From Microscillaceae bacterium (GTDB lineage Bacteria; Bacteroidota; Bacteroidia; Cytophagales; Microscillaceae), in the NCBI GenBank assembly GCA_011390205.1, contig JAABSX010000020.1, forward strand, positions 1 through 62,381: a stretch of 62,381 nucleotides of DNA, read 5' to 3'. The translations under genes and the position numbers were made by a program. Positions 10,298 through 25,914 of the stretch are shown in pieces; the stretch's first letter is position 1; the number at the start of each line of letters is the position of its first letter. The notes under the pieces were generated by a model. The model was not told where the DNA came from, made no database searches, and saw only the letters and a program-made list of their open reading frames with translations.

Positions 10298-10323
10298 TTG
10301 TGAGGGCATGGCTGCCTGTGTAG

Positions 10324-10395
10324 TAGTCCGTACGGGAATCGAACCCGTGTTACCAGGATGAAAACCTGGCGTCCTAACCCCTAGACGAACGGACC
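10324..10395 (-). tRNA. tRNA-Glu (TTC), copy 3 in transcription order
   Basis: 72 nt, complete cloverleaf. Acceptor GGTCCGT/ACGGACT, anticodon loop TTTTCAT with anticodon TTC, T loop TTCGATT, discriminator A. CCA is not encoded. It is identical to the two copies upstream. Confidence 0.97.
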
Positions 10396-10455
10396 TTGAT
10401 GCAATGAATTATTCTTCAGAATTTTTTGACACAGGCGCAATTTGAGCTTGTGTAG

Positions 10456-10527
10456 TAGTCCGTACGGGAATCGAACCCGTGTTACCAGGATGAAAACCTG
10501 GCGTCCTAACCCCTAGACGAACGGACC
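10456..10527 (-). tRNA. tRNA-Glu (TTC), copy 2
   Basis: Identical in sequence to the other two copies; anticodon TTC. The spacer to the next copy shares its first ~43 bases with the other spacer. Confidence 0.97.
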
Positions 10528-10588
10528 TTGATGCAATGAATTATTCTTCAGAATTTTTTGACACAGGCACACTTTTGAGCTTGTGTAG

Positions 10589-10660
10589 TAGTCCGTACGG
10601 GAATCGAACCCGTGTTACCAGGATGAAAACCTGGCGTCCTAACCCCTAGACGAACGGACC
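10589..10660 (-). tRNA. tRNA-Glu (TTC), copy 1 (promoter-proximal)
   Basis: Identical in sequence to the other two copies; anticodon TTC. It is the first gene after a consensus promoter at 10686-10716. Confidence 0.97.
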
Positions 10661-25365: not shown

Positions 25366-25649
25366 ATTTTTGAGAATATTTGATAGCCAAAATAACACAT
25401 AGAGTGCCTTTACCCATCAAAAGCAATTATGCTCTGTGATTGTTTTAAGGTGAAATACTTTTAGGATATGCCTATGAAGATTTAACTTTTTTGTTTAATT
25501 TTATGCTCAGAAGCTAGTCTTAGCCTTAGATTTAGATTAATGACCCTACTTCTTTGTAGGCTTATAAGCCTGAATAAAGAGTAGTTTAGTGTAAGTCTTT
25601 CGCTTCTTAGCTTTAGCTTAAAATCATTTATATTATGTTTTGGCAAGCC
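25366..25649. other. Gene-free stretch upstream of the unusual tRNA locus
   Basis: No convincing coding region. It contains a CCTAC/GTAGG hairpin (25545-25560), the palindrome GGCTTATAAGCC (25559-25570), two similar segments beginning CTTAGCCTTAG (about 25519) and CTTAGCTTTAG (about 25606), and a TTTGGC/GCCAAA hairpin (25639-25652) that abuts the tRNA 3' half. It is presumably the 5' leader of the tRNA transcript; I see no consensus promoter. Confidence 0.4.
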
Positions 25650-25742
25650 AAAGCCTAGTGCGAGGGTTCGATTCTCTCCATTCCGGCAAGACATTATCCT
25701 CAAAAAACGGAATGTAGCTCAGTGGCAGAGCAAGGGTTTCAG
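25650..25742 (+). tRNA. Possible circularly permuted tRNA gene (3' half before 5' half)
   Basis: The 3' half comes first: anticodon-stem strand AGCCT (25652-25656), variable loop AGTGC, T arm GAGGG-TTCGATT-CTCTC (25662-25678), 3' acceptor CATTCCG (25679-25685) and G73. After a 22-nt linker comes the 5' half: acceptor CGGAATG (25708-25714), T8, A9, D arm GCTC-AGTGGCA-GAGC (25717-25731), A26 and the stem strand AGGGT (25733-25737). The acceptor strands pair 7 of 7 and all canonical positions are occupied. The anticodon stem has one G.G mismatch. If joined in the loop the anticodon might be CAG, but the junction is not determinable. The alternative is the relic of a tandem tRNA array. Confidence 0.5.
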
Positions 25743-25793
25743 TTTATCAACTTGTCTAAACCTAAGATAGATGCATCATCTCAAAAGATGATT

Positions 25794-25877
25794 TGTCTTG
25801 TGGTGGAAATGGTAAACACGGAAGAATGATAATCTTCTTTTCATTAGGAATTACTGGTTCGAGTCCGGTCAAGACAA
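25794..25877 (+). tRNA. Class II tRNA with leucine-type body and GAT anticodon
   Basis: 84 nt. Acceptor TGTCTTG/CAAGACA pairs perfectly (7/7), A73. The D arm GTG-GAAATGGTAAA-CAC is typical of tRNA-Leu. The anticodon arm is GAAGA-ATGATAA-TCTTC, so the anticodon (25828-25830) is GAT, which reads isoleucine codons. The variable arm has 15 nt (25838-25852) with a short TTC/GAA stem. The T arm ACTGG-TTCGAGT-CCGGT has one G.T pair. Position 32 is A instead of a pyrimidine. A37 and A38 occur as in tRNA-Ile. It could be charged by LeuRS (anticodon-independent), by IleRS, or not at all. Confidence 0.7.
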
Positions 25878-25878
25878 T

Positions 25879-25914
25879 GAGCCGCTGCATAGGCTAGGCA
25901 GCGGCTCGCTTTTT
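25879..25914 (+). terminator. Terminator of the unusual tRNA locus
   Basis: GAGCCGCTGC (25879-25888) pairs perfectly with GCAGCGGCTC (25898-25907), followed by GCTTTTT. It begins two bases after the tRNA. Confidence 0.9.

Follow-up and report, generated by a model that had tools for sequence, protein, structure and literature searches.

The locus and its permuted tRNA-like module

The window, i.e., the whole stretch of 62,381 nucleotides analysed here, is contig JAABSX010000020.1 of a Microscillaceae bacterium, the genome of which (G000) is a draft of 4.51 Mb in 124 contigs. On the minus strand (10323-10660) tRNA-Glu(UUC) is encoded in three tandem copies. At 25650-25742 a preliminary description had reported a circularly permuted tRNA-like gene, in which the T arm and 3' acceptor strand precede the 5' acceptor strand and D arm. 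The observation is confirmed and all parts are located where they had been placed. The module, termed tRNA_a, is the middle of a predicted RNA of about 405 nt (about 25509-25914), which in the window copy is the length from the closing helix P1 to the T run. The order of parts is P1 with six-base 'NAGNNU' repeats, tRNA_a, one codon, a hairpin, a second tRNA in normal order (tRNA_b) and a terminal hairpin. The features are as follows.

25494-25503, + strand: promoter-like stretch TTTAATTTTA, just 5' of the first conserved base of the RNA; a weak candidate, assigned by position
25509-25514, + strand: P1 closing helix, 5' strand AGAAGC, pairs with 25602-25607
25515-25540, + strand: six-base repeats UAGUCU UAGCCU UAGAUU UAGAUU AA, from the AG periodicity
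25585-25601, + strand: second conserved tract UUUAGUGUAAGUCUUUC, 5' of the P1 3' strand, from the leader alignment
25602-25607, + strand: P1 closing helix, 3' strand GCUUCU, pairs with 25509-25514, from the leader alignment
25608-25622, + strand: third tract with NAGNNU-type repeats UAGCUUUAGCUUAAA, from alignment and AG periodicity
25653-25656, + strand: opened anticodon stem of tRNA_a, 3' strand GCCU (helix 1; pairing in 98.8% of cells, 3 of 4 pairs with two-sided changes)
25657-25661, + strand: variable loop of tRNA_a, AGUGC, near-invariant in the 20-copy alignment
25662-25678, + strand: T arm of tRNA_a, from alignment and covariation
25679-25687, + strand: 3' acceptor strand of tRNA_a (25679-25685), G73 (25686) and invariant C74 (20 of 20 copies)
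25688-25707, + strand: linker joining the 3' and 5' halves of tRNA_a; sequence unconserved, length differing greatly among copies
25708-25714, + strand: 5' acceptor strand of tRNA_a (helix 3; two-sided changes at 7 of 7 pairs)
25717-25731, + strand: D arm of tRNA_a (GCUCAGUGGCAGAGC), stem invariant across 20 copies
25734-25737, + strand: opened anticodon stem of tRNA_a, 5' strand GGGU, from register and covariation
25738-25740, + strand: codon slot, UUC in the window copy, elsewhere the exact complement of the tRNA_b anticodon (31 of 32 copies match)
25775-25792, + strand: hairpin directly 5' of tRNA_b, from the sequence; by eye similar in a number of relatives
25793-25878, + strand: tRNA_b, normal order, anticodon GAU at 25828-25830, long class II-like body (ARAGORN; Rfam tRNA 51.7 bits)
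25879-25907, + strand: terminal hairpin with loop AUAGGCUAG, then a T run

In an alignment of 20 copies the four helices of tRNA_a are paired in 399 of 400 cells (99.8%). Two-sided changes occur in 86 cells and affect 14 of the 20 pairs; none of 500 shuffles scored as high and slid versions came nowhere near. tRNA_a is far beyond chance. Relatives show the same permuted order, their acceptor, T and anticodon stems having undergone compensatory changes. The two acceptor strands, previously noted as exact complements, are conserved and covary, and this extends to several bacterial families and phages. The notion of a cloverleaf obtained by rotation stands, whereas the single G.G mismatch reported for its anticodon stem vanishes once the stem is shifted by one base (25653-25656/25734-25737, GCCU/GGGU); the mismatch arose because a tRNA register had been imposed. 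In the 20-copy alignment this stem has at least 4 bp and follows two unpaired bases, mostly AA.

ARAGORN called a tRNA at 81 of 100 joints of the rotated sequence, yet the anticodon varied with the joint. Gly, Ala, Trp, Leu, Thr, Val and other anticodons were obtained, and the joint originally suggested yields Leu-CAG, i.e., over 100 joints the halves of tRNA_a rejoin to no single definite anticodon. ARAGORN, and Rfam at curated thresholds, missed tRNA_a, and only the downstream tRNA at 25793-25878 was called there. As had been stated before, no group I or II intron core is visible in the flanks, and no Rfam intron family matched at the thresholds used. A natural permuted intron-exon arrangement with group I or II halves as flanks was rejected for lack of such a core and such a match, the lax scans being those of relatives and phage loci.

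A DNA search of 37 genomes, its own and those of relatives, recovered the permuted order in other genomes at loci sharing one architecture. Against a covariance model built from the 20 copies, itself among them, the window copy scores 89.1 bits. Of 390 genomes from the order, 23 contain matches at 69 bits or more, 38 in all; further copies with long linkers in G004 and G011 bring the total to 25 element-bearing genomes. The next match, at 62.4 bits, is Y-RNA-like, and lower scores mix tandem ordinary tRNAs with divergent elements. A class-wide search at E 1e-15, using a model built on Bacteroidota which loses long linkers, yielded no further element-bearing genome among 395. The named records carrying it include Microscillaceae, Microscilla, Bernardetia, Flexibacter and Aureispira, the last a member of another order. 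Within one genome the acceptor stems of different copies are unlike each other.

The leader upstream of tRNA_a is structured as well. AG dinucleotides at six-base spacing number 137 against 35.6 expected (z 19.3, relatedness uncorrected) in 40 leaders from which near-duplicates as well as L141, L007 and L114 had been removed; the repeats are present in the leader of the window copy. RNAalifold returned zero pairs on the leader alignment and P1 was therefore tested by hand. It is paired in 176 of 232 cells in 38 leaders (L141, L007, L114, L118, L120 and two copies with cut leaders excluded), compared with a shuffled mean of 65% and a maximum of 70%, which we rate as moderate support. The promoter-like stretch TTTAATTTTA presumably resembles the Bacteroidota TAnnTTTG box; the exact box lies in the matching zone of 17 of 42 copies, the window copy not among them. 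At the other end of the RNA, a GC-rich terminal hairpin was detected in 40 of 42 copies examined, 38 of them with an AGG loop and most followed by a T run.

Codon slot, second tRNA and the DUF7873 protein

ARAGORN called a tRNA_b downstream of 40 of 44 Bacteroidota copies. In 31 of the 32 copies with a three-base ARAGORN anticodon the codon past the opened anticodon stem is its exact complement. When redundant copies are removed 27 of 28 match, while 20,000 shuffles gave a mean of 6.4 (s.d. 2.0) and a maximum of 15, relatedness being uncorrected. The codon is positioned +4 to +11 past the D arm, at +6 in 20 of the 31 matching copies; L006, L009b and L110 have a longer stem and a correspondingly later codon. 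Twelve different tRNA_b anticodons are represented and position 34 is always G or C.

The count started from 62 rows, of which 18 were dropped: 16 tandem ordinary tRNAs, the Y-RNA-like L050, and L141. The latter adjoins DUF7873 and is a divergent element without an ARAGORN tRNA_b, hence the 32-copy count is unaffected. Twelve of the 44 rows kept have no three-base anticodon call: L007, L114, L118 and L120 have none at all (L007 and L114 end at contig ends) and eight have 8-base or otherwise odd loops. Of these eight copies six carry UGG, and CCA is found within the loop in the five loops read; L125c has CUG and an ARAGORN call containing CAG, and L068b is a mismatch. Such odd or 8-base anticodon loops of tRNA_b are seen in a Bernardetia-like group (L009, L064, L068, L072, L101, L106, L125; ARAGORN calls TTCC, CGTA, GCAG, TC).

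The window copy is the sole mismatch of the 32. It combines UUC with anticodon GAU, and two of three positions still pair. This counts against a strict codon rule. The copy may be drifting or re-targeting; it is counted as a member of the element through its other features, and as a deviating one.

The bodies of tRNA_b often contradict their anticodons. A long variable arm is a requirement of Leu and Ser tRNAs, yet short bodies are found in 10 of 15 copies with a Leu anticodon and in the single Ser copy, and long bodies in 3 of 4 copies with Ile or Phe anticodons. Therefore what is conserved looks like pairing, not amino-acid identity, and we infer that pairing rather than charging with the cognate amino acid is kept in tRNA_b. 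At 25793-25878 ARAGORN reports a tRNA-Ile(GAU) despite the long Leu-like body. Annotation pipelines would take the tRNA_b copies for ordinary tRNA genes. Neither Ile(GAU) nor Ala(UGC) is among the ordinary tRNAs read in the genome itself, probably because rRNA operons are absent from the draft.

DUF7873 (PF25283) is encoded in 24 of the 25 element-bearing genomes and in 31 of 390 overall (Fisher 5e-31, relatedness uncorrected). The one element-bearing genome in which it was not found, G013, is 79% complete. At several loci, Aureispira included, the element is located directly 3' of the DUF7873 gene. The window genome has both, with DUF7873 on contig C36 and no element within about 900 bases 3' of it; given this separation, the RNA would act in trans. 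Seven further DUF7873 neighbourhoods were inspected, six from genomes without a strong model match and one around the second DUF7873 gene of G012, other G129 and G007 loci being left out. In six of them a divergent permuted tRNA-like follows 3' of the gene; L269 is a paralogue without an element.

The predicted fold of DUF7873 is poor from a single sequence (pLDDT 49) and good when based on an alignment (pLDDT 91). With this model Foldseek returned nothing at E 0.001 or better (best 0.095), and the best VIA-align Z of 6.0 (5.4 A, 126 residues) is at the level usual for models without a clear match. A sequence profile against PDB reached E 0.27 at best, and PHROGs had no match. As the predicted fold is without a convincing relative, RNA binding by DUF7873 is a putative property.

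Phage and viral forms

DUF7873 was found in 73 phage records. Eleven phage or plasmid records were inspected: tRNAs are annotated around DUF7873 in six and a TROVE gene in one. The stretch 3' of DUF7873 is mostly unannotated, and permuted tRNA-likes are located there in 9 of the 11 records (RHph_Y65 and Pam2 by eye); in the remaining two, PA-SR01 and the Microcoleus phage, none was seen after DUF7873. The Microcoleus phage (L175, 2348-2557) has a HEARO RNA of 129 bits directly 3' of DUF7873, in the place expected for the permuted tRNA. In Rhizobium phage RHph_Y65 (L165, 12133-12750) the TROVE (Ro-like) gene shares a tRNA array with DUF7873.

In the best 80 of 231 viral contigs, some of them near-identical, a scripted scan covered 900 nt 3' of the DUF7873 gene and up to 900 nt 5' of it. 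A permuted tRNA-like was present on the 3' side in 64 of 80 contigs and on the 5' side in 0 of 80. A small number of these 64 hits have long linkers or are distant from DUF7873, and three of the misses have less than 150 nt of sequence downstream. The six-base AG periodicity 3' of viral DUF7873 has a z of 9.2, the upstream control one of 1.1, again with relatedness uncorrected. In a set of 70 distinct viral acceptors, from which ordinary tRNAs were not filtered out, C74 is present in 59 and an encoded N73-CCA in 37. This suggests that viral tRNA_a has a processed, tRNA-like 3' end.

In phages the codon rule does not hold generally. Where an ordinary tRNA is close behind, it mostly fails: by eye L186 and L168 fit, L229 fits save at the wobble position, and L218 lacks a clear stem but has a nearby AUG, whereas L196, L202, L209, L213, L220, L235 and L242 do not fit. 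Actinophage and Streptomyces elements consist of two permuted modules in series and have no normal-order tRNA_b, therefore docking of a tRNA_b on the codon cannot be general in its present form. In L166 (5690-6200), L169, L173 and L174 the first of the two modules encodes CCA, and a conserved CUUAAACGUGU-like stretch is located past the second. An exact-pattern scan of the viral contigs returned 0 hits; the phage forms were reached through DUF7873 only.

Relation to known RNAs and proposed function

No family in Rfam 15 covers the RNA above threshold. In topology it resembles the YrlA Y RNAs and permuted tmRNA, yet it falls outside both definitions. No account of such an RNA, in connection with DUF7873 or with permuted tRNAs of phages, was found among the open-access papers listed, and this RNA of bacteria and phages is apparently undescribed.

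Codon-anticodon pairing outside a message is familiar from the T-box specifier, and a multimeric protein on evenly spaced AG-containing repeats from TRAP. Here the likeness is by resemblance only, since the tRNA is within the same RNA, the spacing is 6 and the protein is unrelated. A reading in trans would have the codon capture cellular tRNAs of one anticodon in the manner of a T-box specifier, with tRNA_b as a competitor or reference. All 12 three-base anticodons are ordinary, with G34 or C34, and the codons differ among the copies of one genome, as such a reading would have it; a tethered tRNA_b should nevertheless occupy the codon, and we consider capture in trans unlikely.

YrlA (RF02553) likewise has a tRNA-like module which leads at its anticodon end into a protein-binding module. 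YrlA-type Y RNAs are reported from bacteria and mycobacteriophages, and abundant RNAs beside an Rsr-like gene in a Listeria phage were suspected in 2025 to be Y RNAs (PMC12282133). The earlier statement that no permuted bacterial tRNA is established needs qualification in this respect: the YrlA Y RNAs are bacterial and have a tRNA-like domain, and the same genome contains divergent permuted copies on contigs C73 and C42. These are Y-RNA-like series (L050 on C73, 17600-19800; L051 on C42, 1-900) with GTGYCGTAG and TGTTACC arms and, in several members, permuted tRNA modules, all below the YrlA threshold; by eye one copy seems to hold a normal-order tRNA without the usual acceptor stem. Could the window RNA be a divergent YrlA, i.e., a permuted tRNA-like module atop a Ro-binding stem? 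The point of permutation is identical, Y-RNA-like copies exist elsewhere in the genome, and a TROVE gene is near one phage DUF7873. The YrlA model scores 28.9 bits on the window copy and 28.2-28.3 on two relatives, well under the Rfam gathering score of 69, which the genome's own C73 copies (35.7-40) do not reach either. By eye the arms of the C73 array are missing from the window RNA, as is a Ro-binding stem motif of the C73 kind, and its statistical partner is DUF7873. It further possesses six-base repeats, a codon slot and a second tRNA; the latter two are not known as parts of Y RNAs. We regard a YrlA identity as distinctly unlikely.

In the gene of a permuted tmRNA the acceptor piece comes first, followed by an intervening stretch and the 5' piece. 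The element shares this gene order with permuted two-piece tmRNA (RF04321 and relatives), as well as the CCA encoded in many viral copies and a codon past the stem. That two-piece tmRNA genes are permuted is stated in PMC3985003. Replacement of tmRNA was rejected because an ordinary tmRNA is encoded in the genome (127.5 bits). A variant which tags or rescues ribosomes, with tRNA_b decoding the first codon, would be consistent with the identical topology, with sub-threshold tmRNA_permuted matches in 2 of 4 elements scanned (24.6 and 26.9 bits), and with some acceptor stems which by eye can be read with G3.U70 and A73. Yet among the relatives tmRNA_permuted does not exceed 26.9 bits at a threshold of 47, and in the window no tmRNA family reaches its gathering score, RF00023 matching a fragment with 9.1 bits. 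Unlike permuted tmRNA the element has a full D arm and several copies per genome with differing codons, alongside the ordinary tmRNA, and no conserved tag frame was seen: by eye the frames past the codon are short and inconsistent among copies, often stopping within one or two codons. A tmRNA variant is, thus, quite improbable.

The preliminary interpretation as a tRNA gene is supported with respect to a permuted, covarying tRNA-like, not with respect to a working tRNA. The permuted tRNA genes of algae and archaea, according to PMC3978253, are re-ligated to one tRNA with a real anticodon. The element has the same order of halves; it differs by the lack of a defined anticodon and by extra conserved modules. 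A true permuted tRNA gene would require that the transcript is circularised or the halves are ligated, e.g., by RtcB, and the linker cut, to give one functional tRNA. The rotated cloverleaf, the covarying acceptor stem and the CCA of many viral copies speak in favor of it. Against it, the anticodon is undefined at every joint tried and what comes after the opened anticodon stem is a codon, the bases of which match the anticodon of another tRNA. Further, the acceptor stems are unlike within one genome, and the flanking conserved parts are left unexplained: tRNA_a is part of a larger conserved RNA which also includes a second tRNA, and genomes with this RNA nearly always encode DUF7873. The element can be explained without any joining of the halves and tRNA_a is very probably not a translational tRNA gene; we regard the reading as a single functional tRNA as highly improbable.

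A remnant of tandem tRNA duplication, i.e., the junction of neighbouring copies which lost their outer halves, has next to no probability: tandem identical tRNAs do mimic the pattern (model matches below about 62 bits) and an ancient origin of this kind could be possible, yet no outer halves are seen nearby, the acceptor stem changes are two-sided across species, and flanks and partner gene are conserved; tRNA_a is not a recent scar. Tandem duplication as a present-day cause is contradicted by the covariation and by the position downstream of DUF7873 in viral contigs.

We consider it probable that tRNA_a is the central module of a non-coding RNA of about 405 nt which works in trans with DUF7873 and forms a ribonucleoprotein containing two tRNAs. 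In this process, tRNA-processing enzymes would cut the linker, and tRNA_a would therefore be a two-piece tRNA, open at the anticodon loop. DUF7873 protomers would bind the UAGNNN repeats of the leader. tRNA_b would dock with its anticodon on the codon, a prolongation of the anticodon stem of tRNA_a, and the docked particle would present two tRNA bodies head to head. In bacteria and in tRNA-rich phages it may mimic tRNA and engage tRNA-acting enzymes, e.g., by decoying anticodon nucleases. Such a tRNA-mimicking, decoy-type use appears to us the most likely one, a view which we hold weakly. Somewhat more readily, though still tentatively, we entertain a new class of ribonucleoproteins in which DUF7873 coats six-base repeats and two tRNA bodies are combined. 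In the Bacteroidota form the two might be joined by a codon-anticodon helix free of the ribosome, each copy being specific for one codon out of at least 12; the class might comprise Bacteroidota, actinomycetes, and phages of actinomycetes, cyanobacteria and proteobacteria.

In this RNA two parts retain codon-anticodon complementarity to each other, apparently outside translation, and the complementarity covaries per triplet. Should real pairing occur, the geometry of decoding has been put to a different use. DUF7873, a family without an assigned function that occurs in many large phages, gains a testable partner and substrate; gaps in the annotation next to it and 'tRNA' annotations misread there are explained. 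Permuted tRNA-like RNAs of bacteria would in that case be much more frequent than the handful of known kinds suggests.
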